Source of the DNA: a virus
Strand: one strand, 5' to 3'
DNA length: 46,700 bases
Virus record (IMG/VR): IMGVR_UViG_3300042373_000598
Location: 1-46,700 of that record
The notes beneath the pieces were generated by a model. That model was not told the DNA's origin, did not search any database, and saw only the letters and a list, made by a program, of their open reading frames with translations. Below, in pieces: positions 25,590 through 44,975 of this stretch (the first letter of the stretch is position 1; every line of letters starts with the position of its first letter). Position numbers and translations under genes: made by a program.

Positions 25590-25592
25590 TTT

Positions 25593-27845
25593 ATGGCTAG
25601 CCCTTTTTCTAAGTATACTGGAGAACAAGTTCCCCAGACAAACATTCTACCCGCCACTACCGAAATGGCGAGGCAGAGGTTTGAGTCTATCGCTGGCTTT
25701 GGTAAGGACATTGGCAACGCTATTGCCAAGTACGGAGAAAGAAATCAAGAGCGTGTAAAGAACAGTATGTTTGCCGCTGGCATTGTAGGCAAGTTCCTTG
25801 AAGCCCCAGAAGAACTTACAGATGCACAGGATAGACCTAATCCTCCTGTGCTTTCTGAAACTGCACCTGCTCACATCAAGCAGTTGTATAAGAAGGCTGA
25901 ATCTGAAGGTGACGGAGACTGGGTTGCTGGTATGTCTGGTGTTAGCGGTCTTGAACTTGAATCCTTCCTAGCGTTGCAAGGCAAATACGAGAAGGAAGAA
26001 GAAGTTAAGTTTAGCAGAGGTATCCAAGAAAGAGGACTGGCGTTGCAGGAAGAAGGTCACAAACTTCAACTTAAAAGGTTTGAGGTAGAATCCAAAGCCA
26101 CAGAAGTAAACATTCAGGCCGCTGTTTTTAATCTTGAAAGAGCCAAGGCTACTGCGGCTACGCAGGACGAACTTACACAAATTGACCTAGGTCTTAAAAG
26201 ACTGATGCTCCAGTATGAACAGCAGGTTGGCCCTGAAAAGGCCAAGGCGTTTATGCTGGAACTTGAGGGCAGGAAACTTCAGGTCAAGGGCTTGCAGAGA
26301 GCGGAAGATGCGGCATCTGCATTGGATGAAGTAAAGGCCGCTGTTGTTCCTCAGTCGAAGACCCTTACCTACGAAGAACAAGTTCCGAAGGTGTATGGTC
26401 AGTACGAAATTGATGGTCAAATGATGGACAGTTTTGACCTTGCTGAAGCCATCAAGCAAATCGACCCTAGCCTTAAACTTGAAGACATTGACGGAGATGG
26501 CGTTCTTGACGCTATTGCTCCTGCGGTTGCTGATGCCGTTCCAGTTAACAATCAGATTGCCAGAAAGATGACTGGAGACAACGGCTTTGTTGTTGCCGAT
26601 AGAGCGGCTGACACAAAGTCTACCCTTAACAACAAGTTCATTGATTCTGTTTATAATGAACTTATCAGAATGTATCCTGACAAGAAGGCTCTAATTGATG
26701 CTGATTTTAAGGGCAACACTGTTACTGGAGGCACAAACAAAGACACTCAAAACAGAGTTAACCCAGCAGAGCAGTACGCTACTGCCAAGAAGTGGTTTGA
26801 CTCTCCTACCATTCAGGCCGCTCTTGCCAAGAAGTATGGTGCTGTTCCTGTTGCATCTCCTGTAAGCAAGGTTAAAATTCTTTACACCAACCCTTACAAC
26901 GACAGCGTTCAGAAATCTGAAACATACCAGTTGAGCGAACAAGCGGTCTGGGATGCTAAGATTGACTCTGTAAGAGCATCTTTTGCCAAGGCAGGTAAGC
27001 CGTTTACACTTGATAACAGAGATGTTTACAAGGCTGTTAATCTTTATGGCGGCTATATGCCTGTCACTATGCCTAATGGCGTTCAGGGCTTTGTCAGTCC
27101 TAAGGGTGAGTTTATGAGTATGTCTCAGTTTGCCGAACTGGGAGTTCCGTCTTCTCTTCCCAAGACAGAGTGGGAATCAAAGAGAAACATCCATAACAGA
27201 TTCCTTCAGGATTATGCCGCTGTTGTGGTCAAGGATGCCAACGGAAAGGTTTCCGTCAAGGGAGGCCAGACAACGGATACTGGTTACACAATTGGCTTCC
27301 TTACAAGAGACCCCAAGAATCCTATCAACGATGCAAGAGCAACTGACTTTGGTAGGACTGAAGAGACAATTGCTCAATTGAAGAAAGACCTTAACAAGGC
27401 CGATGTCTTTGTTGACCGAATGATGGAAATGTGGGATGAGGGCAACTTTATCGACATTGTTGTTGGTGCTTGGACTGGTGGTAAGTGGAATAAGGAATAC
27501 ACCGCTAATCAGCGTGGCCTTGAAACTTTCCGAAAGTACTTTATTGCTCCAGGAACAGAAACTGAAAAAGATGCCCAGCGTCTTGCCGACCTTATGTCCG
27601 AGCCTTCGTTCCAAGGTTGGAGAAATAAGGATGTGTCTAAGCAGGTTCTTGAACTTGCAAGAAGTCTTGTGCTTGATGGGATTAGGATTGAAGCCGAGTC
27701 AAAAGGCTTCTTTGTTAATGCACCAGCAGGTAAGGGTATTCCAGAAACTACCCCTATGACAAAAGAGCAAAAACAAGCCGTGCTTGATAGGATTGCTTCT
27801 TTGACTGGTGTTACCCTTCCCTCTCAAGAATCTAAGAAAAAATAA
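25593..27845 (+). CDS. Internal virion protein, 750 residues
   Basis: Residues 130-250 form a long coiled coil (LALQEEGHKLQLKRFEVESK). At 298-306 lies DIDGDGVLD, a calcium-loop pattern (D at 298, 300, 302 and 306), though position 12 of the loop is Ala. The remainder is alpha/beta without a known domain. Position and size fit the middle ejection protein, like T7 gp15. AGGAGGT stands 10 bases before the ATG; it is one of few SD-like sites, but it also encodes the end of the previous protein. It is coupled to the giant gene by TAATG. Confidence 0.65.
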   Translation: MASPFSKYTGEQVPQTNILPATTEMARQRFESIAGFGKDIGNAIAKYGERNQERVKNSMFAAGIVGKFLEAPEELTDAQDRPNPPVLSETAPAHIKQLYKKAESEGDGDWVAGMSGVSGLELESFLALQGKYEKEEEVKFSRGIQERGLALQEEGHKLQLKRFEVESKATEVNIQAAVFNLERAKATAATQDELTQIDLGLKRLMLQYEQQVGPEKAKAFMLELEGRKLQVKGLQRAEDAASALDEVKAAVVPQSKTLTYEEQVPKVYGQYEIDGQMMDSFDLAEAIKQIDPSLKLEDIDGDGVLDAIAPAVADAVPVNNQIARKMTGDNGFVVADRAADTKSTLNNKFIDSVYNELIRMYPDKKALIDADFKGNTVTGGTNKDTQNRVNPAEQYATAKKWFDSPTIQAALAKKYGAVPVASPVSKVKILYTNPYNDSVQKSETYQLSEQAVWDAKIDSVRASFAKAGKPFTLDNRDVYKAVNLYGGYMPVTMPNGVQGFVSPKGEFMSMSQFAELGVPSSLPKTEWESKRNIHNRFLQDYAAVVVKDANGKVSVKGGQTTDTGYTIGFLTRDPKNPINDARATDFGRTEETIAQLKKDLNKADVFVDRMMEMWDEGNFIDIVVGAWTGGKWNKEYTANQRGLETFRKYFIAPGTETEKDAQRLADLMSEPSFQGWRNKDVSKQVLELARSLVLDGIRIEAESKGFFVNAPAGKGIPETTPMTKEQKQAVLDRIASLTGVTLPSQESKKK

Positions 27846-30800
27846 TGTCTGACATCGTATACTCAAACATTGGTGAACTAAACAAAGCCGCTAAAGAACA
27901 GGGCTTGGTAATTCCAGAAAACAAGGCTCTGGAGAATCCAGATAACACCATCAACAGTGTTACTTCTCCTGTTAAGTTTGAAGACTTGCCCGAGGATATC
28001 CTTGGAGAGCAGGTGGCATATATGATGCAGAGGTATCAGATTCACGGATATGTGCCTACCTTCAAGGAAGCCATTGCTTACAGAAAGCATATGGAAAAGA
28101 AGGAGGCTTCTTTTATCCATTCCGCTGGTGAGGCTATTTCTCAGACAACTTCTGACCTTTATGACGCTTCAAAAGGTATTGTTGGAGATGCCCTAACGCT
28201 TAGAGTTCCTAAGGTTGTTGGTTCTGTCGTGGAAGGTGCGGCTCTTGGAACTAAGAACTGGTTCTATATGTACGAACAAGCCAAGTACGATGAGCATTCG
28301 TTCTTGAGCAAGATGCTTTACGGCAATCACGCCAGCGATGAGGACTACTACGAAAATCTTAAGAAGACAATCGAACTGAACAAGTTGATTGAAAAGGACA
28401 GAGTTGAGGGCATCTTGGTTGACCCAAAGGTAAAGATTGGTGACACGGAAATTGACCTTACTAATCCTGCGGTTGTCCAAGGCATCTCTTATGTTGCCGA
28501 CCCTTCTTGGGCTATGCCACAACTTGGCATTGAAGCCGCCATCGTTAAGTCGATGAGAGGTGCGGCTATGGCTACAAGACTTGGTACGCAACTTAGCAAG
28601 GCTGGTGCGTATGCCGCTAAAAAGGCCGCTACTGGCTTTGGAAAACTTGCGGACTTTTCGTCTGGTATTGCCAACGCAGTACAGACCATTGACAACAACA
28701 TTGTTGGCGTTGCAAAGGAAGTCACAAGCCACGACCACTACATCAACGGAACAGGAACTCTTCAGGCTCAGGATGCTATTGTAAGAAATGCCGAAAATTC
28801 CCTTGGCATTAGAATCGCAAAGATTCCGCTATGGGGTACTACCACAGCGGTGTTTGGTGTGTCTAAGGTTGTTGAAGGCGTTTCTAGAATAGGAGAGGCC
28901 ATTGGTAAGAACGCTTTTGATACCAGTCTTGCTACTGGTGGACTTACTCTTTCTGAGCGTGTGGCTCAGACTACGGAAGGAAAGATTGGCAGTGTTGCCA
29001 ACTTCTACTCCAAGAGCGTAAGCCCTATGACTGAATGGATGGGTCAGACTGCAAAGACATCTATTCACTCTGGTATGTATGGTGGTGCGTTTGGTTTGGC
29101 GTTTGGCGGTGAAGAAGGTATGTACCACGGATTTGGCACTGGCCTTGTTCTTGGCTCTGCCTTCCATCAGGTTGGTGCTTTTGCTAACGCTGTTCAAGGT
29201 GCAGATAAGTACAGAACAGTTCTTAAGAACTTCCTGTGGGCTTCAGAGCACTATGATTTTTACAAGCAAGAAGGCGTTTACCACCTTATGGACAGAGTTG
29301 TTCAAGAAGGTGGAGAAGAAGCAAGATACAGTCTTATGGCTCAGTTGGGTGCAACTGAACGAATTCTGCGTGACGAAAAGATGCTCGTCCTTACCGAGGA
29401 AAGAATTAAGGAAATGTCTTCGTCTGACGAGTGGGATGCTTACCAAAAGCAAATGCTTGAAGACTCCGAGTTTGGCGGTGTAACCTTTTCAAAGATTAAC
29501 GGAGACAATGTGATTCTTGTTAATGCAGACAGGGCTGTTAAGTCTGCCGTTTCTGAGGAACTCTTCCACGGACTGATGCTTGAGAAGCGTTATAAGAAGG
29601 CTTTTGTTAAGCATACAGTTGATAACCTTATCGGAACTGAAGACGCTAAGGGTGCATTGCTTAAGATGCCAAGAGAACAGTCTGTCAGAATTCTTGAACA
29701 GTTTAGAGACCAGTATTTCAGGCTGGATGCTGAGACACAGGGACACACTCCACAGGCAATGGAAAGAAACCTTGCTCAGTTCAACGAAGCCATTGAAAGG
29801 TTCAAGGCTGGTGAAAACCCCACGAACTTCAGAGGATTCTTTGAAGAGTTTCTTGCGTCTTACTGGAACAGATTTATCGAAGATAAGCCGCTAGACTACC
29901 TTGTTAAGGGTGGTGACCTTGGTATTATTCGTAACGCCATTGAATGGGGCAAGGATATGTACAGGGACATTCTGCGTGTAGACCTGTCCGAGGCTGGCGT
30001 TCAGTTGATTAAAGGTGCAAATCCTGACGCTTTCCTTATCGACCAGAACACCAAGCAGAGAATCAGAGTTCCGATGCTTGAGAAACTGATGAAGCATTAT
30101 GTTAAGGAGATTAACAAGGAGATGTACTCTGGTTGGGCTGTTAACAAGGAAAAGTACAGAGACACTTTCTCTCTTCTTAACAATCAACTTGAGCACCTTA
30201 TCCCGCCAGAAGACATTGGTAAGGCTGAAGCAAGGGTAAACCCTGACAGCGTCAAGGGAACTATTGCCTCTGGACTTCAGAACATTGCGGAAAGACTTTC
30301 TCAGGTAGACAGGTCTAACAGAGGCACTACGCTTGAAATTATTAACGACAATGGCGTTACGCTTGCATCTTTCTCTGGTCAGAAAGACCCAAGCAAAAAG
30401 CCAAAAAAGACTGTTGCTCAGGCTATCCCTGCTGAACAGAAAAAAGATTTTTGGAGAAAACTTCCTAAGAGCAAACAGGGTGCTGGCGTTACCAGAGAAG
30501 GACTCAGGGCTATGGGTGGTGTCAAGAAGGGAAAAGAACCCAAGAGGGTTGAAATGCCAGCCACTGAAGGCACTGGTGCGTGGGAAACCGACAAGGGTCT
30601 GAAGGCTCGTGGTGAATTCTGGGAAAGCGTCTGGCAGGGTAATCCTAGAATCAGAATCAGAGGTATGGCTAGCAACGAGGAACTCGCAATCTTCAGAGAG
30701 TACCTACCCGAAAATGTGGTTAAGCGTTTTGCTGAACTCAATCAAATCATTGAGCGAAGCAAGGTTGGGCAACTTAAGGACATCAGCAACATTGTTAAGG

Positions 30801-33800
30801 CTACTGTCATTACTGAGTCCAAGGAAAACGAAGACGGCACTAGAAAGTTTGGACATTTTATGTCCGCTAGACGCTTTATTCCTGTCGAACTTAACCTTTA
30901 CTTTAGCAGAGTTAAAAAGAGCGTCTCAAAGAAGACTGGAGACATTACCTACGAAGTCGGAGAAGCAAACCTTAAGGCTACAGTACTTGATTGGGATGCT
31001 CTTCTTACAAGAGAGGAGTACGCCTTTAACAAGGTTGATGACGGAGACCTTAACTACAAGACAGTTCAAAGACTGTTTGGCACTAGGGCAGAACTTAGAG
31101 AAGCCGTAAAGGCTATGCTAGCCAACTACAGCCTTGGAAGCAGAGCACAGGCTGGCATCAAGTTGTTTATGAACGGCAAGGGTGGTGAGCGTGATGCCGC
31201 CCTTAAGCGTGACATTGTCAACGCTGTCATCGGATATCATCCTACAAAGGGTATGGAGCAGACTGGCAGAGGCTGGTACAACGAGCCTAGGGATATGCAA
31301 CTTAGACAGAGCGGCAAGAAGCGTACCCTGCCCACAACAATGACGGACTTCAGAGTAGACCTTATTGGCACTATGCGTATCGAGGACGGAGAAGGGTTCA
31401 GATACGACCACGATGAAGCCTACAAGCGTAGTCAGGCTAACTTTTCTCCTGCCATTACCCACAGAGACCACGAAGGTAACCCTATGCCTAGCCACGCTAG
31501 GTCTATTCTCGCTAACACAAGATACAGAAACAAGGAGGGAGAAATTATTGCCGTCTATCCTCTTAGAACTCCCACATCTGAAATCACAGTCAAGAAGGGT
31601 GCAAATAAGATTTACGATGTCGTTGCTGAAGATTTGGTCGATGCTATGGAAAAGAAAGGCATCGTTCGTGGTTCGATGTACACTTCTCCTAGTGGATGGT
31701 TGCATTTTACAGCCGATGGTCACGAGGCTGGATACACAGTCCGTGACAAGATGCGTACTGGATACATCAATACAAGCAGACATCTTGACCTTTCAGACCT
31801 AGGCAACTCTGGCTCTATCAGGTCTATGGTCGTTGAGATTGGTAAGCGTGTTAACGAAACAACCAGCCTAAACGCTGGAGATGTTGTTAAGCAGATTCTT
31901 GAACTCAAGGATGCTGACGGAAACAAACTGTACGACATCTTCAAAAACGATGAGGACATCATCTCTACTCACCTAGACACGATTGAGTCTTGGCTGTTTA
32001 CGCCTCAGTCCAGAAAACTTTTTGCTAAACTTGGCATCGACTCTGTTGAGTACAGGGCTGTAAACCCGAACAGCGGTAACGAATTCTCCGCTGTCGCTAT
32101 CTTTGCCCCTGAAAGGTTCATCGAAAACAGAACCAGATACGGACTTGAACAGTTCCAGTTCTCTCCCTCTAGAACGATTGAAGAAAGCCTTAGAAAACAG
32201 ATGGCTCGTGCTGGAAGCACAGACCTTGCAAGCGTTCTTAAGTACAGAATTGATGAGTTTGGAGACCCTGTTCCTAACACAAAAAGAATTACTACAAAAA
32301 CTGTAGATGACCTGATTAGACTTAACAAGATGCTTGTTGAAGATGCTAAGAAGGCTCTTCAGAGCGGTGGATTCTTGAACGATGAGTCCAAGGCGGCATA
32401 CGAAAAGGCTCTTATTCCTTACGCTATGCGTGAGTTTAAAAAGAAGTTTCCTAACGCTACGGACGATGTGCTTAGGCAGGTTGCCGAGTACTCGCTTAAA
32501 GGTTTTGTTACCTATGTTGAGTCATTGCCTGAGGTTAGAAGAACCCTGAACAAGCCGTTTGGTGCTACGACGGAAGTTCCTACGCAGGAAGTCAAGGCTA
32601 ACAGTGCCTTCGTTGAAACCGCCCTTAAGATGGGCATCACTCCTGAGGCTTTGATGGAAACTGGCATTCCGTCTCTTGGTCATTGGATGGAAATGTCCGA
32701 AGCGGAATTCCACACCCTCAAGAACTATAAAAATTACGCAAAAGACCTTGCCGCTATCATCAAGGAACGAAAGGCAGAAGGCTTGTTCATTGATAAAGGT
32801 GCTATTCAGCGTGAACTTATCAGCAGAGTACTTGCCAAGAACAACGGAATCACTGGATTGATTGACAACATTGGTCAGAGACAGCGAGAACTGTTCTTCT
32901 TGATGGATGAGACGATGGGTGGCGTTAATCTTGCTGAAAAGTTTGCACTGTCCACACACGCAAAGCGTAAACTCAACACAGAGTTTGTAATCAGAACTAG
33001 AAAGTTTGTCGGAGAGCAACTTAAACTTGGACGCAACGCTAGTCTTAAGAAGATTAAGGATGCCTTTGACCTACTCGTTGAATCGGGAAGAGACATTCCG
33101 TCCGAAGTTTCGGAGGCTATGGCTGTCCTTACAGAGCACGAAAGAAAGGCTGAGTCTATTATCACTCAGGATAATATGGACAGAATTATGGATATTATGG
33201 CGGCGTACAGCATCAAGGAACTTGATATGGATACGCTTGAGCAGGTCAGAGCAAAGATTTATGACGAGGCTTCCAAGGGTTTCTATAACCTTGGCTCTCC
33301 AGAGTCCATCGCTAGGTCTGTAGAACTGTACGCCACCTATGACGGAGGTAAGAACAAGCGTTACATCGATGTAAAAAAGACAATCAAGGAGAACTTTATC
33401 AAGGCTCTTGATGACCTTGAGCGTAAGGGAATGCGTGGTGTCTGGTGGTCTAAGTTAGATACCAGCAGAACAGGCGGTGTAATTACCCTTGGTTCTAACG
33501 AGGCTGGCATTCCTAATAAGTTTAGCGTCACCAGTGCTATGAGGTTTGACGGAACTAACTTTCACTTAATCCGTAGAACTCTTACCGATGCTCTTAAGGA
33601 CTCTGGTCTGTCTGAGGCTGACGCTATGTCTCAGGGCAACGCCGCCAGCGTTGTTGAACTTGTTGACGGAGATGGAAGAACCCTTGACAGAATAGTTCTT
33701 GAATACGGAGAGGGTGCAGAAAAACTTAAAGAAAAGAATGACCTGTTCCTGAGAAGGGCTACCTCTATGGTCAATAAACTTGTTCCTGAACTGTCTGTTG

Positions 33801-36800
33801 CCAATGGCAAGTTCCAGACTGTTGAAGGTGCTGTTAAGGAGTTCCTTCTTAGAAGGGCTGTCAAGGCTAGCGGAAGAACTGAAAAGGATATGTTCAGTGA
33901 GCCTTGGACTTCCGCAAGCGGTGTTGGAACTGACACTCAGGTTGACAACAGACAGCAACTCAGAAGACAGACTGGTGGTCAGGGTCTTATTAAGAGTGAC
34001 GCTGAAATTGAGTCTCTCACAAAGTCTACCTCTAAGTGGGAACTGTACAGAAACGGAGACTACTTCTTGGCTTGGCCTATCTCTGACGAAAGAAAACTTC
34101 CATCTGGAAGAAGCATCGCAGAAGAAATTACCTTCCTTAAGGGTCAACTTAAGAATGGTGTTGTTACTGTACCCAAGAAGGGAAGACAGCCTGAGACCAC
34201 TAGACAGATGACTGTAGACGAAAAGGTTCAGATGAGAACCGACATCGCCAAACTACAGAAGGATGTCTACCTAGACTTGGGCTTCACATTTAAGGTTGAT
34301 AATAAATATGGTATCGAAATTCTTGATACTACATTCAATAGCATTGAACACAGAGAGCAGACGCTGGCTCAGATGCGTCTTGGAACTACATCCAGCAAGG
34401 GATTTGAGTCGTTCCTTAAGAAAACATACCTTAGTTTTGACAAGAAACTGAAGGAACTTAAGGAAACAAATCTTAAGAAAATCGACATTGTACTTTCTGA
34501 GAAAGACAAGCGTGGTGCTATTCCTCAGATTAAAGCCCTTCTTCAGGAACTACACGGCTTTGAAGCCACCAAGAAGAAGTTTATTACAAACGAGATGCTG
34601 GCTTATAACAAGGCCAACAAACAGAGAGGTACTGGAAAGAAGCAGTCCGTAGACGGAAAGGCGATGCACAGACTTCTTAAGGACAGACTGGACAACTACA
34701 GCAGAGCACAGAAGCAAGCGGAAACTCAGTACCTAGCCATCGCTGAACAGATGAGAAAGTATAACCTTCTTGAAAGAAGCGAAGGGTTTACTCCTGAGAT
34801 GGTAGAAAGTATGGAGTCTAGAATTGCTTTCAGTGACCCTGCCGAACTGTCACAGTATATGATGCCTCCTCCCCCAAAGGGAGTTGCTCTTGCAGATTGG
34901 GCTACCAATCTTCGTATGGAGTTTAGAAAGAGACTTGCTGAATTTGAATACAGAGACAGACTGCATCAGCAACTTAACGACAATCTTTACGGACTTGATG
35001 ATGCGTCTGCCGATGTTGTTGACAAGATTCAGTTCCTTATCAGCAGGTATATGGAAGCCAGAGGCTACAGAAACATTGATGCCTCCTCGTACTTCAGAAG
35101 AGGAACAGAAGAAGGTAGCGTTGGTTACACTGACCTTAAGTGGAAAGAACTTAAGGCTGGAGTTCCTGAAAGGGTTTCTGGTTTCGGCAAGGACAAGTCC
35201 AAGACAGAACCAGTAGAGAAGCAGGAAAGAAGATACCTTCCCGACAAGGAAGGCATCCTCGACACCCCGCTTCCTGATGACCACAAGACACCAGAAGAAC
35301 TTATCAAGGAGTTTAAGGACGGCCTTGAAGAGGCGGCTGACCAGTGGTACATCGGTAAGAACAGAGACCAGATGCATCTGGATGATGTCCTTAAGTGGGG
35401 CAGACATTCTGCTAACGGAGAAAACTCTACATCTGGTGCTCTGATTAGAGGTCTTAGTAAGGACAAATTTGACGCAACCGAACTGGCTTGGATTAACAAT
35501 CCTGAAAACAAGAGCCAAGTTGCGGAGTTTCACGGCAGATGGGCTAGCGAAGAGGCTACGCCTACTCAGATTATTTCTGAGATTAAGGATGCGGTTCTTT
35601 CAAGCACTGTTGGCAAGGACGGAATCCAACTTAGAGACACTGTAAAGGCACTGAACGAAACCATCAGGAAGATTGGTGTTGTTTCTGACAGGCTTAGAAT
35701 CAGACACGGAGTTGAGGCTTCGCTTACCCCTAAGGAAATGGAAAATCCTTATGCCGTTAGGACTAGAAGTATGGTCAATGAAGAGGTAGACCCTATCCAG
35801 ACCTACAGAAAGGATATGCCTAACGACATTGGTAAACTCCAAGAGGAGATTACTAACCTTAGAGCACAGAAGATTTCGCTTGAAGCCAGATACAAAGCCA
35901 TCCTTAAGAAGGCTTCTGGAAGGTACGCCAGCCCTGAGTTCCGCAAGATGGTTCAGCAGATGCGTGGCGAAGATGTAAGAGAAAGAATCGCCAGAAAGAA
36001 CACTAGCCAGAGAAGGGCTGAAGAAAAATCTTTGCAAAAGCAGTTGGCTTCTTCCGAGAAGGAACTGTTCAGAATGTACGATGACATCGCAAGGAATATG
36101 CGTATGCAGAACCCTGAACTGATTTTTGAAAGTTCCAGAATCGAGGTTCACCCTAACGACCCTCGTACACAGTACCTGTTCTATTCGTTTGGTGCTCTGT
36201 CTTGGGACTTCTTTGGCACTAAGTGGCAGATTGACCTTAGCCTTACAACGGCTGGCAAAGAATCTCCCCTTGGCATTTCTGCCCAGAGAGCGGACATTTC
36301 ACCTACTGACACACCTGTTATTAAGCAGATTAACAAGCAGGAAAGAGCGACAAGACGAAAGATTTACCTAGCGGACTACATCCACTACGCTGTAAACAAG
36401 CGTAGATTCCACGAGCGTAATCCTAGCGAGCCTATGTCTCCGATGGATGCCAACTTGTTTAGCGTCTTCTTCAAGCGTGATGTTCAGGGTGGTCTGTTTA
36501 GGGACAAGATTGCCAGAATCCCTGTCGAACAGATGCAGATGCAGGAAGCGATGAATCAGGGTATCATTGAGTCGTTCAGAAACCCTGACGAGCGTAGCAG
36601 GTTTATCAGGTCGTTCGTTGTCGATGCCCTTGACCTTATCTCCACGGACAAAGCCCTGAGAGAGAAGGCGTTTATGAACCTTAAGGGTATCAACTACGAG
36701 CAGTACAAGAAACTTGTCGCTGAGAATCCTAAGTATGTCACCACGGCTCTAGACACCCTTGAAGTTGTTGAAAAGGCAATGTACCTTATCAAGGACGGAA

Positions 36801-38494
36801 ACATCCCTGCTGGTGAGGCTGGAGAAGTTTTTAACAAAAGGGACTTTTTCTCCAGAAAATTCTCGATTGAAGAGAACAACTACATCAAGTCTGTTGAAGA
36901 CAAGCACAAGATTCCTGCTGGTACTATTAAGAGAATTCTTAGTGGCGAACTTCAGGGCGTTCCTCTCCCCAAGGAAATCCAGAGAATGGTCAGCAAGAAC
37001 CAACAGCCGTTCCTCACAAGAGCCAACATTGGTTTCGTTCCTGTTGACACGCTGGTTAGAATGCACGGCTTTGACGAAATCTGGAGACAGCATCTTAGCG
37101 ATGAAGGCTATAACACAGCCCTGTTCGCCCTTGATGGTATGTGGAATGTCAAGAAAGCCTATGAACAGATGCCTCCTCAGGAGCGTATGGCTCTTCAGGC
37201 TTCCAGAGTAAACAGACTGCTGTTGGAGAATCGTGCCAACCAGATGCAAGCCGCAAAGGAGATGAAGGAGCGGTACAGAAAGCGTGACAAGGCCGTGCTT
37301 GCCCCTGAGTCTATGCCCAACTGGGCTTACGGACAGGAAGACAGCATCGTCAAGGACGAGTTCAAGCGTGTTGATGAAATCCTTAAGACCGCTATGTCGG
37401 TTGAGGCTACAATCCAGCGATACAAGGGTGACGCTGTTACCTTTGTAAACAAGAGGCCGTTTGCCCTCGACCAACTGCTTGCTCTGGATGACAAACTTCA
37501 GATTGATGGTGCAAAGCGTAACAAGGATAGAACCCTTAGCATTGACTGGGACAACCCTGACAAGCCCCAGTGGAGAGACACAGTTGATGGACGATACTTC
37601 ATCAAGCGTGAGGTGAACTCAAAGGGTAAGGAAAGTTTCAAGGTGTACTTCAAGGGTCAGACCTTTAAGACAGCCGAAGGTGTGCTTGCTGGTCAGATTG
37701 GTGTCACATCTTTTGCCACAGTTGAAAACCTTACACAGGCTCAAGTCGCTATTCGCTTCTTTGAAGACGATGTAAACAGAGTCGTTCTGTCTTCCCGCCT
37801 CATTAAGGGTGGCGTTAAGAAGTTTGAGCCTATGGCTGTCGGTGAACAGGTTCTTCCTGTTCAGAATGTGGACAAGATTTTTGCCGTATGGGACGAAGTA
37901 CCTGCGTTCTCTCAGAGCATCCTAGACCTGTATATGGAGAACAAAGGTACGCCTTTCTTCAGAGAACAGATGGCTGAGAAACTGGCTGGCATTGGTCAGT
38001 ATGGTGAAACTGTATACATCAAGGAGTGGGAAAAGGGTAGATGGAAGAAGACTGAAATCACTATTACCCCTCGTGAGTCTGGCAGGTTTGCAGAACACTA
38101 CACAAAGACTACCAGCCCTGATGGACACACTATGTACATCAGAAAGAAGGACACTGTTACACCAGAACCTACAAATCTTGGCTCTGATTCTGCTACTAAC
38201 AAGGAACAGGCTACTAGCACTCCTGCTACCGAGAAGCAGGACAAGGTAGAGAAGACTGTTTCTGATGCCAGCAAATGGAACATCATTGAAATGGATAAGT
38301 CTTCTGCTGGTGACCACGAAGAGTGGAGCATTATCCGAAACAAACTTGGCTACACTATGCTAAGACTTAAGAATCCTGCAACAGGCCGAAGCGTATTTAG
38401 GCTTTTCAATCCTGCGTCTGCCTTTATGGCTGAGACACACCACGAGATTGATGCTATGGAACACATCTTAGACAAGGAACTTGAAGGCAAATGA
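27845..38494 (+). CDS. Giant internal virion polyvalent protein with ART-like segment, 3549 residues
   Basis: About 23 percent of the genome. N-terminal 450 residues contain Gly/Ala-rich hydrophobic stretches (near 235-280 and 406-445), which could enter a membrane. At 571-575 is EELFH after ILVNADRAVKSAVS, like a HExxH zinc-protease helix with the first His lost. Around 1150-1430 comes a polyvalent-protein block: LPTTMTDFRVDLIG, then GSMYTS with WLHFTADGHEAGYTV, GYINTSRHLDLSDL and FSAVAIFAPERFIENR, which fits an ADP-ribosyltransferase of the ART-PolyVal kind. Residues 2100-3200 are mostly helical and charged. A Ser/Thr-rich linker lies at 3437-3478. By position it is a T7 gp16-like ejection protein; injected effector domains are inferred. 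AGA is the main Arg codon. Confidence 0.75.
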   Translation: MSDIVYSNIGELNKAAKEQGLVIPENKALENPDNTINSVTSPVKFEDLPEDILGEQVAYMMQRYQIHGYVPTFKEAIAYRKHMEKKEASFIHSAGEAISQTTSDLYDASKGIVGDALTLRVPKVVGSVVEGAALGTKNWFYMYEQAKYDEHSFLSKMLYGNHASDEDYYENLKKTIELNKLIEKDRVEGILVDPKVKIGDTEIDLTNPAVVQGISYVADPSWAMPQLGIEAAIVKSMRGAAMATRLGTQLSKAGAYAAKKAATGFGKLADFSSGIANAVQTIDNNIVGVAKEVTSHDHYINGTGTLQAQDAIVRNAENSLGIRIAKIPLWGTTTAVFGVSKVVEGVSRIGEAIGKNAFDTSLATGGLTLSERVAQTTEGKIGSVANFYSKSVSPMTEWMGQTAKTSIHSGMYGGAFGLAFGGEEGMYHGFGTGLVLGSAFHQVGAFANAVQGADKYRTVLKNFLWASEHYDFYKQEGVYHLMDRVVQEGGEEARYSLMAQLGATERILRDEKMLVLTEERIKEMSSSDEWDAYQKQMLEDSEFGGVTFSKINGDNVILVNADRAVKSAVSEELFHGLMLEKRYKKAFVKHTVDNLIGTEDAKGALLKMPREQSVRILEQFRDQYFRLDAETQGHTPQAMERNLAQFNEAIERFKAGENPTNFRGFFEEFLASYWNRFIEDKPLDYLVKGGDLGIIRNAIEWGKDMYRDILRVDLSEAGVQLIKGANPDAFLIDQNTKQRIRVPMLEKLMKHYVKEINKEMYSGWAVNKEKYRDTFSLLNNQLEHLIPPEDIGKAEARVNPDSVKGTIASGLQNIAERLSQVDRSNRGTTLEIINDNGVTLASFSGQKDPSKKPKKTVAQAIPAEQKKDFWRKLPKSKQGAGVTREGLRAMGGVKKGKEPKRVEMPATEGTGAWETDKGLKARGEFWESVWQGNPRIRIRGMASNEELAIFREYLPENVVKRFAELNQIIERSKVGQLKDISNIVKATVITESKENEDGTRKFGHFMSARRFIPVELNLYFSRVKKSVSKKTGDITYEVGEANLKATVLDWDALLTREEYAFNKVDDGDLNYKTVQRLFGTRAELREAVKAMLANYSLGSRAQAGIKLFMNGKGGERDAALKRDIVNAVIGYHPTKGMEQTGRGWYNEPRDMQLRQSGKKRTLPTTMTDFRVDLIGTMRIEDGEGFRYDHDEAYKRSQANFSPAITHRDHEGNPMPSHARSILANTRYRNKEGEIIAVYPLRTPTSEITVKKGANKIYDVVAEDLVDAMEKKGIVRGSMYTSPSGWLHFTADGHEAGYTVRDKMRTGYINTSRHLDLSDLGNSGSIRSMVVEIGKRVNETTSLNAGDVVKQILELKDADGNKLYDIFKNDEDIISTHLDTIESWLFTPQSRKLFAKLGIDSVEYRAVNPNSGNEFSAVAIFAPERFIENRTRYGLEQFQFSPSRTIEESLRKQMARAGSTDLASVLKYRIDEFGDPVPNTKRITTKTVDDLIRLNKMLVEDAKKALQSGGFLNDESKAAYEKALIPYAMREFKKKFPNATDDVLRQVAEYSLKGFVTYVESLPEVRRTLNKPFGATTEVPTQEVKANSAFVETALKMGITPEALMETGIPSLGHWMEMSEAEFHTLKNYKNYAKDLAAIIKERKAEGLFIDKGAIQRELISRVLAKNNGITGLIDNIGQRQRELFFLMDETMGGVNLAEKFALSTHAKRKLNTEFVIRTRKFVGEQLKLGRNASLKKIKDAFDLLVESGRDIPSEVSEAMAVLTEHERKAESIITQDNMDRIMDIMAAYSIKELDMDTLEQVRAKIYDEASKGFYNLGSPESIARSVELYATYDGGKNKRYIDVKKTIKENFIKALDDLERKGMRGVWWSKLDTSRTGGVITLGSNEAGIPNKFSVTSAMRFDGTNFHLIRRTLTDALKDSGLSEADAMSQGNAASVVELVDGDGRTLDRIVLEYGEGAEKLKEKNDLFLRRATSMVNKLVPELSVANGKFQTVEGAVKEFLLRRAVKASGRTEKDMFSEPWTSASGVGTDTQVDNRQQLRRQTGGQGLIKSDAEIESLTKSTSKWELYRNGDYFLAWPISDERKLPSGRSIAEEITFLKGQLKNGVVTVPKKGRQPETTRQMTVDEKVQMRTDIAKLQKDVYLDLGFTFKVDNKYGIEILDTTFNSIEHREQTLAQMRLGTTSSKGFESFLKKTYLSFDKKLKELKETNLKKIDIVLSEKDKRGAIPQIKALLQELHGFEATKKKFITNEMLAYNKANKQRGTGKKQSVDGKAMHRLLKDRLDNYSRAQKQAETQYLAIAEQMRKYNLLERSEGFTPEMVESMESRIAFSDPAELSQYMMPPPPKGVALADWATNLRMEFRKRLAEFEYRDRLHQQLNDNLYGLDDASADVVDKIQFLISRYMEARGYRNIDASSYFRRGTEEGSVGYTDLKWKELKAGVPERVSGFGKDKSKTEPVEKQERRYLPDKEGILDTPLPDDHKTPEELIKEFKDGLEEAADQWYIGKNRDQMHLDDVLKWGRHSANGENSTSGALIRGLSKDKFDATELAWINNPENKSQVAEFHGRWASEEATPTQIISEIKDAVLSSTVGKDGIQLRDTVKALNETIRKIGVVSDRLRIRHGVEASLTPKEMENPYAVRTRSMVNEEVDPIQTYRKDMPNDIGKLQEEITNLRAQKISLEARYKAILKKASGRYASPEFRKMVQQMRGEDVRERIARKNTSQRRAEEKSLQKQLASSEKELFRMYDDIARNMRMQNPELIFESSRIEVHPNDPRTQYLFYSFGALSWDFFGTKWQIDLSLTTAGKESPLGISAQRADISPTDTPVIKQINKQERATRRKIYLADYIHYAVNKRRFHERNPSEPMSPMDANLFSVFFKRDVQGGLFRDKIARIPVEQMQMQEAMNQGIIESFRNPDERSRFIRSFVVDALDLISTDKALREKAFMNLKGINYEQYKKLVAENPKYVTTALDTLEVVEKAMYLIKDGNIPAGEAGEVFNKRDFFSRKFSIEENNYIKSVEDKHKIPAGTIKRILSGELQGVPLPKEIQRMVSKNQQPFLTRANIGFVPVDTLVRMHGFDEIWRQHLSDEGYNTALFALDGMWNVKKAYEQMPPQERMALQASRVNRLLLENRANQMQAAKEMKERYRKRDKAVLAPESMPNWAYGQEDSIVKDEFKRVDEILKTAMSVEATIQRYKGDAVTFVNKRPFALDQLLALDDKLQIDGAKRNKDRTLSIDWDNPDKPQWRDTVDGRYFIKREVNSKGKESFKVYFKGQTFKTAEGVLAGQIGVTSFATVENLTQAQVAIRFFEDDVNRVVLSSRLIKGGVKKFEPMAVGEQVLPVQNVDKIFAVWDEVPAFSQSILDLYMENKGTPFFREQMAEKLAGIGQYGETVYIKEWEKGRWKKTEITITPRESGRFAEHYTKTTSPDGHTMYIRKKDTVTPEPTNLGSDSATNKEQATSTPATEKQDKVEKTVSDASKWNIIEMDKSSAGDHEEWSIIRNKLGYTMLRLKNPATGRSVFRLFNPASAFMAETHHEIDAMEHILDKELEGK

Positions 38495-38796
38495 GCGACC
38501 AGCAGTCCATCAATAGTATGGTAGAGGAGTTCAAGAAGGCTGGCTGGCTCTTTGCCCTTCTTGGTGGCCTAGGAATGCTTGCTAGGCTTATCCTGACCGA
38601 TGAGAAGTACCACACTATCAGATGGACTAGGATGGTCATTGCTGGGGCTATAGTAGGCGTTCTTGTGTACTTTGCCCTGTATAACGCAGATATTGACCCA
38701 TTCTACAAAAGTGTACTATGCTCCATTTCTGGTTCTCTTGCACCAGAACTATTTGACTGGGTACGAAAGAAATTTTTACAAAAAGCCTCTAACTAA
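38491..38796 (+). CDS. Holin candidate
   Basis: The 101-residue protein has a short N-terminal helix, then membrane segments at about 19-35 (WLFALLGGLGMLARLIL) and 46-64 (RMVIAGAIVGVLVYFALY). A third weakly hydrophobic stretch (SVLCSISGSLAPELFDWV) precedes a basic tail, RKKFLQKASN. Size, multiple membrane spans and charged C-terminus fit a phage holin that opens the inner membrane at lysis. ATGA overlap with the giant gene. The spanin candidate lies three genes on. Confidence 0.75.
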   Translation: MSDQQSINSMVEEFKKAGWLFALLGGLGMLARLILTDEKYHTIRWTRMVIAGAIVGVLVYFALYNADIDPFYKSVLCSISGSLAPELFDWVRKKFLQKASN

Positions 38797-38804: not shown

Positions 38805-39125
38805 ATGGGTTCATCTAGACGAATGACAATTCCCGCTCTTCCTCCTCCCAATCCTAATGCGGCTGGGTCTACGGCAAGCACATCTAAGTATAATGTGCCT
38901 GTTGTTGGAGGATATGACAGCAACAACTATCAGCCGTTCTTTACTCAAGCGGCTATAGGCCCACAGAATGGTCAACCCCAGTCGTTCTTTAATCGATACG
39001 GCAGTGTTGGCACTGACCCTGCTCAACAGCCTTGGACACCTAGTTCTGTCGGAGGAATGGGAGGTAACAATGTAATGCAGTTTGCTGGAAGTGCTAGAAA
39101 CCTGTTTAATCCGCTTGGTATCTAA
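38805..39125 (+). CDS. Low-complexity Pro/Gly/Asn-rich protein, 106 residues
   Basis: Begins eight bases after the holin stop and ends by TAATG overlap. The protein is rich in Pro, Gly, Asn, Ser and Gln (MTIPALPPPNPNAAGSTAST), with no charged helices or membrane segments, and is probably disordered. It may be a small virion protein. It starts MGSSR, close to MGSSK of the 293-residue ejection protein (24708), a possible shared N-terminal signal. Confidence 0.6.
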   Translation: MGSSRRMTIPALPPPNPNAAGSTASTSKYNVPVVGGYDSNNYQPFFTQAAIGPQNGQPQSFFNRYGSVGTDPAQQPWTPSSVGGMGGNNVMQFAGSARNLFNPLGI

Positions 39126-41965
39126 TGGCTAACATTATCGTTCCTGACTCTGGAGAAGGCAGTATCGATAGAGAACTGCTCAGAGATAAGTTTACAGGAA
39201 GAAGCAACCTGTTTTTTAATGTACAAAACGCAGGTGGTGTAAGAAGTGCTAGACAGGCTCTTAATTTTAGTCCTGACATTCTTCAGTTAGACCCAGCCGT
39301 AAAATACAGAGCCTTTTCTTCGCAGACAGCCGCTGACGATTTTCTTAAAACAGGTCTTATTGCTGGAAGAGGTCATTATGCTAACTCCTTGTTTTTTAAT
39401 CAGGGAGTTCCTCTTCTAAGTTACGCTCAAACTAGTGTTCCTAATCAAAGATTTTTAATTGCTACTCTTGGCGATAACTGGGGAGATAGAAACGCTAACA
39501 CTTTTGGTACAAAAGGAAGACAAGGTGGTCTTGGTTTAGATGTAGCAAAAGATGCTACCGCTTTTTCTGTTGAACCTCCTATCAGTATTTCAGCAAATCC
39601 GTATACAGAACAAATTGGAGACCTTTCTGCTCCAGATGAAAAAAAGTTCAAAACACTAAAAGAACTTAAAAAATACGCAAAAGGTATTAAAGAAAAGTAT
39701 ATAGGAAGAAATGCTGGAACTGAAAAAGGGCTTCCAAGGCCAGCAGTCCTTCCAGACAGAAGAATTACTGATGCGGATTATTTAGGTACGCATTTGCCAA
39801 GACTTCAAGATACGAAAAAAGAACTTTTAAAAATTGGCGATTATCTTTTAAGCCCAGATGTACAGCGTGCTGTAAGGTTAATAAGAGATAAAGAAATTTC
39901 CACCAATACTGAACTTAAAAATCCTCTTTTAGATTATTACCAAAAGTTTTTTAGAACAATTGATGATGGACATTTAAGAGGTTATCAAGACCAAGTACAC
40001 GGAGGCGTATATCCTACACAAATTGCTCCTTACGATGAAATGGCTAGGGATATTTTTGATTCATCTCCAGATAATGTAAAAGCACTTAAAGAGCAACTCA
40101 AGGTGTCTATTGACGGATTCCTTGGTTCAACAATTTCAAGAGATAAGATTGTTCCTTTTGACAAAGCGTTAACTTATTTTCCTCAAAACGACAACGCTAA
40201 AGGAGCACCAAATCCTTTTGGTAGTTTTACTGACCCTTCACCTGCTGAATTAGCGGCTGTTAAAAAAGGTTTAAAACAGAACCCTAATTATTACAGACAC
40301 GGATATCCCCAGCACATTGCAGGTATAATTAACAATCATCAATTTCAAACAGGTATTGATGGGTATGCTCTGACTCACAGAACTCAAGACCTTCTAGAAC
40401 TTCTAGATGAAACTCAAAGGACTTTTGACCCTACAAAATTTGCTACGACTTTTTCATTAGAAGACCTTCCTGACCGAGTTCCATTTCCTGATTTTGCAAC
40501 AGGTTATGCTGATGATGGTACTCTTGCAGGTACTAATATTCTAGACAAATACGGAAAACCAGTTGTTCCAAACACACCTCAAGAAGGTTTGTACATACAG
40601 TCACAATCTCCAGTTCAACCAACTTTAACAACCGCAGAAGGAACACCCCTTTTAAGGCTAACATCTGCCGATGAAGGTGTTTTTAAAACTCCTCAAGGTG
40701 TTTTGCATAACCTTAATAATGTTTTTGACCAAACACTAAGTGCTTGGGGAAAACAGACTAAAATTCGAAATTTGGAAATCCCTCGTATGGGTCTTGGTGG
40801 AGCGATGTACAGCGAAGTGCTTCCAACTACAAACATTCTTGGTAACTATTTAGACCCAGAAACAAATCAGCCTAGACAGTGGCAGATGCTTTCTCCTTTC
40901 ATAAATCCCCAAGAAGGAAGCAGACCAGCGGTTATGTTCCAGATTATGGATGATGGGACTTACAAGGTAGTAAAAGAATTCAACAATGACCCTACATCGG
41001 AAGGATGGAAACCGATTCCTACTGGAAGTTTAGCACCTGAAAAGCAAAAGGAAGCATATGTAAGATATCTTCAAGAAATGACTCAAGAGGTTGCTAATGG
41101 AAGAACTGAACTTATTGGACTTAAGTCTGATATCTTTTCTGAAATTATTCAGGAGTTGCCGCAAAACCTTACACCTTCTCAGGTAGAAGGGGCAATCGGC
41201 AGTCTTACGCCTACGCAACTTGAAGGTGTTGCGACCAGACTTATGGCGGCAGGAATCACTCCAGCACAAATTATTGATTCTAAAAAAGGGAATTACGATG
41301 CCTATCTTCCTTCTGGCAAGAATTATAGAACTCTTGGTGGACTAGTTGATGAAGCGACAAGAGGTGACCCTAACTATGGAAAGAAAGGGTTCTTAGATTT
41401 AAGAGCATACCTTGGAGGCTTCAAGGAAATGGTTACGCCTGAAATCAATGGAGAAGGTATGGTAAAATTCTTTACAGACCCAGAAAAAGCATCTAAGTTT
41501 AGCCGTCTTTATTTTAAGAACCCTGAGTTTGCAAATTATGTTAATGCTAGAGCGGGAACTGCTCTTTTAAGAACTGCTGGTAAACTTGGAGAGGTTGCTG
41601 GTGTTGCTACTGCTCCTATGATGTCTAGAGAAAGATTGGGTGCTTATGTCCAAGATTATTATGCAAAAACAGGCATTGACCCAAGAGGTACATACAGTAT
41701 GGGCAAAGATGGAGTTGATGACTTGGCAGGACTTGGTATCTTGTCTGGCGTTGAAAACGCTTTGGATGTTGCCACATTTGGCAACTACGACAGTTGGACT
41801 GGAAATGAAGTTCAGATTGCCAGAAAGGAACTTCTGGATAGATATGCCGCAATGGAAGAGGCTATGAAGCCAATTTCTGATTGGCAAAAAGCCAGAGAAA
41901 GAAGACAGGCTGGGATTGATAACCCTGTCTACAATGGGCAAACCTTCACAAGAACTACAAAATGA
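39125..41965 (+). CDS. Large unknown virion-type protein, possible N-terminal ART-like domain
   Basis: The 946-residue protein is coupled to both neighbours (TAATG, ATGA). Residues 60-110 (YRAFSSQTAADDFLKTGLIA, then YANSLFFNQGVPLLSYAQ) resemble the start of ADP-ribosyltransferase-like domains: an Arg (R62) in a YRxxS context, then a strand with an F-F pair. A catalytic Glu cannot be assigned. A middle block has many His, Tyr and Pro, and the C-terminal third is helical with QLEGVATRLMAAGITPAQII. Base use is the most AT-rich of the window, with AGA almost the only Arg codon. It may be another ejected protein or a recent acquisition. Confidence 0.6.
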   Translation: MANIIVPDSGEGSIDRELLRDKFTGRSNLFFNVQNAGGVRSARQALNFSPDILQLDPAVKYRAFSSQTAADDFLKTGLIAGRGHYANSLFFNQGVPLLSYAQTSVPNQRFLIATLGDNWGDRNANTFGTKGRQGGLGLDVAKDATAFSVEPPISISANPYTEQIGDLSAPDEKKFKTLKELKKYAKGIKEKYIGRNAGTEKGLPRPAVLPDRRITDADYLGTHLPRLQDTKKELLKIGDYLLSPDVQRAVRLIRDKEISTNTELKNPLLDYYQKFFRTIDDGHLRGYQDQVHGGVYPTQIAPYDEMARDIFDSSPDNVKALKEQLKVSIDGFLGSTISRDKIVPFDKALTYFPQNDNAKGAPNPFGSFTDPSPAELAAVKKGLKQNPNYYRHGYPQHIAGIINNHQFQTGIDGYALTHRTQDLLELLDETQRTFDPTKFATTFSLEDLPDRVPFPDFATGYADDGTLAGTNILDKYGKPVVPNTPQEGLYIQSQSPVQPTLTTAEGTPLLRLTSADEGVFKTPQGVLHNLNNVFDQTLSAWGKQTKIRNLEIPRMGLGGAMYSEVLPTTNILGNYLDPETNQPRQWQMLSPFINPQEGSRPAVMFQIMDDGTYKVVKEFNNDPTSEGWKPIPTGSLAPEKQKEAYVRYLQEMTQEVANGRTELIGLKSDIFSEIIQELPQNLTPSQVEGAIGSLTPTQLEGVATRLMAAGITPAQIIDSKKGNYDAYLPSGKNYRTLGGLVDEATRGDPNYGKKGFLDLRAYLGGFKEMVTPEINGEGMVKFFTDPEKASKFSRLYFKNPEFANYVNARAGTALLRTAGKLGEVAGVATAPMMSRERLGAYVQDYYAKTGIDPRGTYSMGKDGVDDLAGLGILSGVENALDVATFGNYDSWTGNEVQIARKELLDRYAAMEEAMKPISDWQKARERRQAGIDNPVYNGQTFTRTTK

Positions 41966-42546
41966 AATGGCTATTCTCATCCCTGTTTTTACTTGGCTGT
42001 TCAACGCCACCCAAGCAAGCCCCTGTTATTATTTCTAACAATGAGCAGAAAGATGCGTACATCACGAAGGTCGAAGCAGTCATCTCTGAGTCTGCTTCTG
42101 CTCTCACTGCTGTCGCTCCTTCCCTCCCTGCTGGAATCCCTAGAGAAATTGTTGAAGGGCAAATCACGAGACTGAACGGAGTAAGCAAGGCCAGTGTCGA
42201 GAAGGTAAAAGAGTTTGAGAGGATGATTAAAGAGAAAGACCAGAAGGCTGTCGAAAAAGATAAACAAAAAGCCGCTAAGGTAGATGCTGAGACGGATAAA
42301 CTATGGGCAGTAGTGGAAGAACAAAACCTGCAAATAGAGATAGAGCAACAACTGCGAGAGCAAGCAGAACAAGTAGCAATAGAAGAGCGTAAAACCAAAG
42401 TAGCATTCCAAGCGTCTTCGGCTTCTCTAGGATTACTTGTATTTGGAATTCTGGTAACTGCATTTAGTCCGTGGAAGAAGGCTGGTGCTACTGTGATTGC
42501 TCTTTCGATTATTTCGTTTGGAGCATTGTGGTGGTTGCTCTCTTGA
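41962..42546 (+). CDS. Spanin candidate: lipobox N-terminus plus C-terminal membrane segments
   Basis: The 194-residue protein starts MKWLFSSLFLLGC, a lipoprotein signal with lipobox LLGC and lipidated Cys at 13. A long charged helix, probably a coiled coil, spans about 60-145. Two hydrophobic segments end the protein (LGLLVFGILVTAF and VIALSIISFGALWWLL). A lipid anchor for the outer membrane and a C-terminal inner-membrane anchor are the mark of unimolecular spanins, which fuse the two membranes at lysis. Two C-terminal spans instead of one are unusual. If correct, the host has an outer membrane. ATGA overlap with the previous gene. Confidence 0.65.
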   Translation: MKWLFSSLFLLGCSTPPKQAPVIISNNEQKDAYITKVEAVISESASALTAVAPSLPAGIPREIVEGQITRLNGVSKASVEKVKEFERMIKEKDQKAVEKDKQKAAKVDAETDKLWAVVEEQNLQIEIEQQLREQAEQVAIEERKTKVAFQASSASLGLLVFGILVTAFSPWKKAGATVIALSIISFGALWWLLS

Positions 42547-44215: not shown

Positions 44216-44562
44216 TTAGGAAGGTTGTTAAGCCACATTCCGTGCCAGTAGTTGGCTTCGATTTGCCAGTAGTCAAGGGAGTGCATAAGTTGCTTTACGG
44301 CTCTTTCACACTCGTTGGCATCGGAATAGTTGGGTTCTTTAAAAACATCAGAATCGCTTCTGCGTCTTTGATTGTCAGCGACACAAACTTCTGGTGCGGA
44401 CTTTTCCTTGCTTTCCCTAGCAGGTAGGACAAACGGACATCCACTGGCAGTACGGATTTCCTTCGTTTTGGAGGCGTTGTGGAGGACATCAATTAGTTCT
44501 TCTACAGATAGACCTAGTAGGTAGGCAGAGGCTTTAAGACTGTTTTGTGCGGTGTGGTTCAT
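44212..44562 (-). CDS. Unknown protein, 116 residues
   Basis: ATGA overlaps at both ends (44559-44562 and 44212-44215). The N-terminal helix (AYLLGLSVEELIDVLHNASK) resembles small phage adaptor or HTH-like helices. The middle is polar and Ser/Lys/Glu rich. The C-terminus has DYWQIEANYWHGMWLNNLPK, a Trp-rich helix. No known family. Confidence 0.6.
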   Translation of the reverse strand: MNHTAQNSLKASAYLLGLSVEELIDVLHNASKTKEIRTASGCPFVLPARESKEKSAPEVCVADNQRRRSDSDVFKEPNYSDANECERAVKQLMHSLDYWQIEANYWHGMWLNNLPK

Positions 44563-44975
44563 AGGATACCCCTAGCCCTATTAAGGGCAGGGTAGTCTAG
44601 TTCGGTGTTGAAGCGGTGCTTCATAGCCCCGCTGAAGCCCATAGCGTAGCACATATAGACACGGATAGGCGTGGGCTTGATGCCGTTAGCCCTAAGGCGT
44701 TCGACAAGCCACTCGCAGTGCCATTGGGCTACCTGTCGGGCGATGGGATAGTTGAAGGCGTTGGCCTTGTTGTAGTCCCAGTTAGCGTAGTTACGCTTAC
44801 AGGCATCGACCCAAGCCTCACGCTTCATCTGGAAGCATCCAAGGCTCTGGCCTTTGTCTCCGATAGCAGTACAGCGTTCGCTGGACTCGATGAGGGCTAA
44901 TTTATCCAAAAAGCCGTCCGTGATTTCCATTGCCTGTGCTTGGATGCACAGGGCGAGGAGGAGTGCGTATTTCAT
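44559..44975 (-). CDS. Secreted lysozyme/transglycosylase-like endolysin
   Basis: The 138-residue protein begins with a Sec signal peptide (MKYALLLALCIQAQA, likely cut after AQA). The catalytic core follows: LALIESSERCTAIGD with E30 as the likely acid, then GQSLGCFQMKREAW. This is the E-S...G...G...Q pattern of lytic transglycosylase/lysozyme-like folds. Six or so Cys suggest disulfides in the periplasm. It should cut peptidoglycan. With its own signal it may not need the holin for export. ATGA overlap with the next gene; the tRNA-Arg is eight bases upstream. Confidence 0.75.
   Translation of the reverse strand: MKYALLLALCIQAQAMEITDGFLDKLALIESSERCTAIGDKGQSLGCFQMKREAWVDACKRNYANWDYNKANAFNYPIARQVAQWHCEWLVERLRANGIKPTPIRVYMCYAMGFSGAMKHRFNTELDYPALNRARGIL

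Follow-up and report, generated by a model that had tools for sequence, protein, structure and literature searches.

The window analysed here is the whole of IMG/VR virus record IMGVR_UViG_3300042373_000598 (46,700 bases), which is probably a complete genome because identical copies of a 244-base direct repeat lie at both ends. A gene on its forward strand (39125-41965, ATG start) encodes a 946-aa protein without cysteine, which an earlier note on this DNA had singled out for a possible ADP-ribosyltransferase (ART)-like N-terminus. Comparison with related phages suggests that the subject is probably a hypervariable family of cysteine-free cargo proteins with at least two exchange sites, rather than one ART-like gene. 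The 946-aa gene would, on balance, occupy a site dedicated to the exchange of modular virion cargo that is ejected into the host. This site, termed slot 2, lies between a holin gene and a spanin-like gene, while slots 1a and 1b lie upstream of the terminase gene terL. More tentatively, the family may be a polymorphic injected-effector system in which a few C-terminal modules carry unrelated N-terminal effectors, one of them a split ART, that are reshuffled among two or three exchange sites per genome, one beside an HNH endonuclease gene, with the absence of cysteine marking the ejected cargo.

Exchange at slot 2 was apparent in the DNA of three close relatives (L056, L057 and L058). The flanking DNA was 76-91% identical to that of the window up to a border at 39019-39136 and again from 41903-42022, and no DNA match was found between these borders, so the similarity stopped about 110 bases or less from the gene edges. 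The left border fell either 11 bases into the slot-2 gene or inside a 106-aa Pro/Asn-rich cysteine-free open reading frame (ORF; 38805-39125, forward strand) between the holin gene and the slot-2 gene, of which the three relatives carry copies at 58-71% identity. The holins were 89-93% identical and the spanin-like proteins 83-92% identical, whereas the slot-2 proteins showed 24-29% identity over the 119-529 residues that align. DNA similarity that ends at or near the gene borders indicates that whole or partial genes were swapped.

Presence of a slot-2 gene was also variable. A portal search gave 36 loci, many on fragmentary records, and 3 of these 36 records encoded a protein related at E<=1 to that of 946 aa, while the neighbouring holin was present in 8 of the 14 larger portal records searched. 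Following the holin in these eight were genes for 817 aa (L047), 547 and 198 aa (L048) and 692 aa (L049), and in the other five (L050-L054, of which L051 and L052 seem to represent a single phage) there was none. A holin search gave 12 loci, of which 11 were counted since the twelfth (L062) is on the same record as L050; seven were occupied, two by the window's own protein (L055, L063) and the others by proteins of 589, 564, 351, 328 and 372 aa, and four were empty. Across both sets, slot 2 was empty in 9 of 19 distinct records, all of them read from a matching holin onwards, a count that omits the records found with the ART-like profile (L070, L072, L073, L075, L092, L093 and G037) and those from a spanin scan (L080 and L081). 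The slot had no gene in L080 and held a remnant of 128 aa without cysteine in L081. Where they differ from that of the window, the slot-2 ORFs of relatives encode 198-826 aa; a protein identical to the 946-aa protein is encoded in L002 and L003. The earlier note had proposed a check of close relatives, and among them the 946-aa protein is not stably present.

The holin on the left of slot 2 (38491-38796, forward strand) matched PHROG 6384 at E 1.5e-6. On the right is a lipobox protein with a hydrophobic C-terminus (41962-42546, forward strand), whose ORF start overlaps the stop of the slot-2 gene. No convincing profile match to it was found in the family libraries, so the label of spanin, which the earlier note had also used, is an inference from the lipobox-like start and the hydrophobic C-terminus in one protein, presumably as in a unimolecular spanin. 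The order of genes is holin, 106-aa ORF, 946-aa gene and spanin-like gene, where that note had set the 946-aa gene simply between holin and spanin.

A site between holin and spanin-like genes is the usual place of an endolysin, and the occupants of slot 2 might be accessories of the lysis cassette, namely muralytic enzymes, lysis regulators or degenerated descendants of these, that are not part of the virion. The overlapping stop and start codons suggest an expression coupled with that of the spanin. The slot in G037 (L102 927-1592, reverse strand) holds a 221-aa cysteine-free ORF with an N-terminal hydrophobic stretch, whose best match was PHROG 22520, without known function (E 7.5e-6), and which also matched the transglycosylase-like PHROG 4067 at E 0.0077. 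It is possibly an endolysin, and a transglycosylase-like occupant fits the endolysin place of a lysis cassette, which tells against a site dedicated to ejected cargo. Apart from G037, neither the 946-aa protein nor any other slot-2 protein that was scanned gave a muralytic profile, and no peptidoglycan hydrolase domain was recognised in the 946-aa protein with the family libraries. The window has a separate transglycosylase-like ORF (44559-44975; PHROG 4067, E 0.002), five of the eight portal-linked records have no slot gene at all, and the same modules occur at the site upstream of terL, which is distant from the lysis genes. A role in lysis is therefore unlikely. The position had been called odd for a virion gene, and it is less odd than supposed because the gene directly upstream of the holin encodes a 3549-aa cysteine-free presumed ejection protein.

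Upstream of terL, slot 1b of the window holds a gene for a 441-aa cysteine-free protein (11211-12536, forward strand) and slot 1a a gene for a 273-aa cysteine-free protein (9935-10756, forward strand) that is partly replaced between close relatives. Between them lies an HNH endonuclease gene (10837-11211, forward strand; PHROG 59, E 1.8e-32). The window and two relatives (L005 and L017) were 88-96% identical in DNA outside two gaps at 10248-10752 (from 9994 in L017) and 11246-12532, which were unmatched except for one patch of 92-123 bp at 72-76% identity. The second interval showed no gap in L006, which encodes a 438-aa protein 74% identical to the 441-aa protein, so not every close pair has exchanged its slot-1b gene. 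The HNH endonuclease was kept in closer relatives while the neighbouring genes differed, and it is possible that it drives the exchange of the adjoining genes. Directly upstream of terL, 29 ORFs of 146-1096 aa were found in 18 types, a type being defined by >90% identity over >80% of length; two of the 18 type representatives (L008 and L019) may lack their 5' part because the contig ends there. The terL records L007, L011, L012 and L027 gave no upstream ORF, and no terL was found in L021, L030, L032, L035 and L036.

The slot proteins were mosaics of recurring C-terminal modules joined to several unrelated N-terminal types. The class-1 C-terminal module comprises residues 777-946 of the window protein (41453-41962, forward strand), and it is a candidate for loading or packaging. 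A class-1 hidden Markov model (HMM), built from eight members, matched 8 of the 11 slot-2 proteins at E<1e-47, although seven of these eight proteins were used to build it and the eighth is 94% identical to a builder, and it matched L059 at E 5e-4. Five of the eight aligned modules end in RTTK or RTTR. A second C-terminal class was common to slot-1 proteins of L018, L019 and L031 and to slot-2 proteins of L059 and L065, at 42-60% identity. The ART-like protein type was found in slot 2 as proteins of 946, 817, 692, 693, 825 and 826 aa, and L068 carries it in slot 1 as a protein of 1096 aa. The second C-terminal class and the ART-like type are thus shared between the sites and class 1 is not, as the best match of its HMM among slot-1 proteins was an unconvincing E 0.011, a point that counts against the cargo reading. 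Two consecutive slot-2 genes were present in L048 (5949-6545 and 6610-8253), both with a class-1 C-terminal module, and the pair suggests a tandem accumulation of cassettes.

Cysteine was absent from all 29 slot-1b and slot-2 proteins (18 slot-1b representatives and 11 slot-2 proteins, many of them related to each other; 13,046 aa), from nine of nine slot-1a ORFs (1,899 aa) and from L092 and L093. When 12 proteins were chosen to represent the different module classes (4,854 aa), 48-58 cysteines would be expected among them. The average of the other 37 ORFs of the window was 1.19% cysteine, with seven suspected cysteine-free ORFs excluded, and that of all 44 ORFs was 0.67%. Three further ORFs of 293, 750 and 3549 aa (24708-38494, forward strand), presumed to encode ejection proteins, had no cysteine in 4592 aa, and their mega-protein counterparts in seven relatives, of which two were cut, had 0-5.

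Similar counts were obtained for proteins that are ejected by well-studied phages. There was no cysteine in T7 gp15, gp16 and gp7.3, one each in T7 gp14 and gp6.7, and none in P22 gp7, gp20 and gp16, N4 gp50, gp51 and gp52, the SP6 ejection proteins and phiKMV gp35-37. Together, 17 ejected or presumed ejected proteins of these five phages had 2 cysteines in 12,954 aa (15 of the 17 had none), compared with 330 in 33,650 aa for other genes of the same records, where the control genes were picked by hand from annotation tables and are not all of the coding sequences, and the label of ejected came partly from annotation. Published work describes the N4-type virion RNA polymerase as being without cysteine (PMC4837373), possibly in connection with passage through the tail or periplasm (PMC3715699, PMC3915230, PMC2784036), and notes the absence of cysteine in mega-proteins of Zobellviridae (PMC10747016). 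Among the matches listed in open-access text there was no statement of cysteine absence for podophage ejection proteins in general.

Several counts weigh against cysteine absence as a mark of ejection. Five of the 37 other window ORFs (2137, 2859, 4375, the scaffold-like 16660, and 19834) were also without cysteine, as were 11 of 82 control proteins of at least 140 aa, including all four labelled scaffolds. The T4 protein Alt is injected and has 3 cysteines, so that the rule fits short-tailed phages only. The absence of cysteine is a correlate of podophage ejection and is not exclusive to ejected proteins.

The cysteine-free scaffolds, which are those of T7, P22, SP6 and phiKMV, bear on whether the slot proteins could be structural or assembly proteins of the head or tail, such as scaffold-like proteins, decoration proteins or adhesins, that vary with host range. 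A low GC content at third codon positions (GC3), which is typical of the slot genes, was also found for the tail-fibre-like ORF at 20139-20885 (0.335). This ORF contains 2 cysteines, the window has its own scaffold-like gene (16660-17631) and tail genes, and a slot that is empty in 9 of 19 records would be intolerable for an essential assembly protein, which makes a structural role quite unlikely. Presence and absence together with cassette exchange would also fit accessory genes outside the virion, such as those for superinfection exclusion or anti-defence that are made late inside the infected cell. It is not obvious, however, why cytoplasmic proteins with unrelated modules should all be completely without cysteine, and lengths of up to 1096 aa for the ORFs next to terL on its upstream side are in our judgement unusual for such genes, so that we regard this explanation as improbable.

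Base composition was a further property shared by the slot genes. The 946-aa gene had been described as the most AT-rich of the window, and its GC3 of 0.247 was indeed the lowest of the 44 ORFs tabulated (the next was 0.262), while in plain GC (0.396) it was undercut by two small ORFs at 24295-24708 (0.367) and 10837-11211 (0.384). The reported dominance of AGA among arginine codons was likewise seen (39 of 49) without being unique to this gene, since AGA encoded 21 of 29 arginines in the 441-aa ORF upstream of terL, where GC3 was 0.286. Most genes at the two main sites had a GC3 of 0.23-0.37, with 0.18 in a partial one and exceptions at 0.43, 0.51 and 0.55. The low GC3 was not put down to a recent horizontal arrival, a reading that was rejected because almost every gene found at the two main sites has it, and for the same reason composition cannot date the arrival of the 946-aa gene. 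The suggestion of a later addition is retained in the sense of an exchangeable cassette, as 9 of 19 records have no gene at the site and most of the other ten carry a different one.

The motifs on which the ART-like N-terminus had been proposed are present in the 946-aa ORF (YRAFS at residues 61-65, FLKTG at 73-77 and SLFFNQG at 88-94), and they are not due to chance as Y61, R62, G77, Q93 and G94, as well as W119 and R122, were invariant in all eight aligned N-termini, each of which begins with MA. The first half of a putative split domain would span residues 55-125 (39287-39499, forward strand) and has the pattern Y61-R62, F90-x-x-Q-G94 and W119, with R62, a candidate by its conservation, at a predicted strand (residues 59-64). 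The second half, residues 545-625 (40757-40999, forward strand), lies about 500 residues further on and includes GAMYSE (with E564), RPAVMFQ and KEFNN, in a conserved block that also has PIP; the E564 column was conserved in all seven rows that cover it. Both halves are based on the alignments and an AlphaFold model, and between them is a variable, mostly helical insertion (residues 178-540; 39656-40744, forward strand; from alignments and omega values), which on the alignments is roughly 215-430 residues long in relatives. In ARTs of the R-S-E type, strand 1 has an invariant Arg, to which R62 would correspond, the second motif has a Ser, often as S-T-S, and the third has the catalytic Glu in E/Q-x-E. 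Here the second motif, [FY][FM][SN]QG, had Ser in six of eight sequences and Asn in the window protein and L068, and the residue two before E564 was Tyr (six) or His (one), not Glu or Gln. The strand-1 His of the Tox-ART-HYD2 group was also not found, this position showing an invariant Y-R.

Purifying selection on slot proteins of the ART-like type was shown by an omega of 0.12 overall between L049 and L072. Values of 0.03 and 0.02 for the two halves, 0.16 for the insertion and 0.19 for the C-terminal part agree with a single constrained domain made up of both halves. This pattern did not recur between L092 and L093, where omega was 0.29 and 0.14 for the halves, 0.24 for the insertion and 0.30 for the C-terminal part.

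A structure prediction had been proposed as a check, and the models obtained were weak. In the second of two AlphaFold models (L049 residues 1-465; mean pLDDT, the predicted local confidence, 42) a weak core was seen, with a beta-alpha-beta arrangement in the first block (about 57-60) and two strands after RP in the second (about 58-68). A Foldseek search with this model gave 309 matches, and the best 50 were largely helical with DarT at ranks 15, 23, 34 and 38 (E 0.85-1.7). With VIA-align, the rows covered mainly the helical insertion and no ART chain was among the best 50 listed, and a BFVD search with the second model gave no significant match. Several results weaken the case for an ART: the model of the 946-aa protein itself was unusable (mean pLDDT 33) and its Foldseek list was noise, the GAMY-E stretch of the second model fell below pLDDT 50, the DarT matches were non-significant and lend the fold weak support, and the first half was no more constrained than the rest between L092 and L093. 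The conserved pattern and a second half with E564 stand on the other side. A split ADP-ribosyltransferase-like domain is therefore a plausible, unproven and rather tentative reading of the N-terminal module.

Family searches were largely negative. No convincing match was found for the 946-aa protein or its relatives in Pfam, PHROGs or NCBIfam, and for further slot proteins these libraries gave weak matches and none that was convincing. PDB sequence profiles gave four weak matches, the best to a coiled-coil-like chain at E 0.46, or none. A tblastn search of the 946-aa protein against phage records had no match at E 0.01, the 1096-aa and 692-aa proteins each had one (E 0.6 and 0.4, respectively), and two scans of genome contigs found no relatives.

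For the 3549-aa ORF directly upstream of the holin (27845-38494), no convincing library match was found. The mega-proteins of L047, L048 and L049 were 32-33% identical across about the first 2500 residues, and uncut versions in relatives have 3,716-4,390 aa and 0-4 cysteines. An identity as an N4-type RNA polymerase was rejected, short of exclusion, as a motif-B-like pattern was unmatched and BLAST to N4 gp50 gave nothing below E 0.3. Several cysteine-free ORFs share the start MGS[SK], after which comes a stretch that is rich in Pro or at least contains it (window 24708-25589 and 38805-39125, L009 5876-6244 and L016 5996-6340), which is possibly a shared N-terminal signal. Elsewhere in the window, an inverted repeat of 48 nt (524-571 and 9172-9219; 79% complementary) has arms 8.6 kb apart, the second of which lies at a drop in GC from about 0.56 to 0.42.

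A sequence of events can be proposed from these observations. At both sites the resident gene differs among phages that are otherwise alike, presumably through swaps by recombination, and the proteins combine recurring C-terminal modules with unrelated N-terminal partners, one C-terminal class and the ART-like type being found in both sites. The slot proteins may be carried in the head and leave through the short tail together with the DNA or ahead of it, like T7 gp14-16, P22 gp7/16/20 and N4 gp50-52, with a complete absence of cysteine as the correlate. The C-terminal module would serve in loading or anchoring, while the N-terminal module would act on the host envelope or cytoplasm. In the 946-aa protein, residues of about 55-125 and 545-625, with R62 and E564 as candidates, might modify a host target early in infection in the way of T4 Alt, which is the least secure part of the proposal.

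To our knowledge, little is known about the injected proteins of podophages besides the channel proteins. A hypervariable cysteine-free family with shared C-terminal modules offers a concrete candidate set for ejected proteins, and the absence of cysteine a simple sequence test for them among uncharacterised proteins. If this holds, the ejected cargo of a phage could be listed largely from sequence, and the slots would mark points of competition between phage and host.

The slot proteins can be compared with several known systems. Podophage ejection proteins (T7 gp14/15/16, P22 gp7/16/20 and N4 gp50/51/52) are likewise cysteine-free or nearly so, and in T7 and N4 they are encoded by three ORFs of rising size in a row, as are the cysteine-free 293, 750 and 3549 aa of the window. 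High divergence and domain swapping have been described for ejection proteins (PMC8954989). The slot proteins differ in being additional to such a set, in being dispensable, as the 9 empty slots in 19 records show for slot 2, and in their exchange as cassettes at two or three sites, and the 946-aa protein had no PHROG, Pfam or NCBIfam match to families of the gp14, gp15 or gp16 type and no tblastn match in phage records.

The polyvalent proteins of phages and conjugative elements are described as mosaic and presumably injected, with ART as the commonest protein-modifying enzyme, and their ARTs (Tox-ART-HYD2) have a His in strand 1, a Tyr in strand 2 and an Asp in strand 5 (Iyer et al. 2017, PMC5512222). 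In place of this H-Y-D arrangement the slot proteins have an invariant R after Y at strand 1. No Pfam domain was above the cut-off in the slot proteins scanned, and the two or more recognised domains by which polyvalent proteins are defined were not found in the 946-aa protein, where unrecognised domains are possible. DarT and other ART-fold enzymes resemble the ART-like type in the YR...tG.i pattern at the N-terminus and an invariant E later on; they differ in that the fold matches were non-significant, a long insertion separates the two parts of the putative domain and no profile or sequence match was obtained.

The nearest known logic is, by analogy, that of the T4 internal proteins (IPI-III) and Alt, which like the slot proteins are a varied injected cargo with a recurring targeting part. 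According to one article, the internal proteins are poorly conserved among T4 relatives, a shared capsid targeting sequence has been proposed to load various proteins, and Alt is an ART (PMC9026906). The T4 internal proteins carry an N-terminal propeptide of 10-19 residues that is cut in the prohead, where the slot proteins have a C-terminal module of about 70-170 aa, and Alt has 3 cysteines, where the slot proteins have none and no sequence similarity to a known ART was found. Recurring modules that may direct otherwise unrelated proteins into the virion are the feature common to both.

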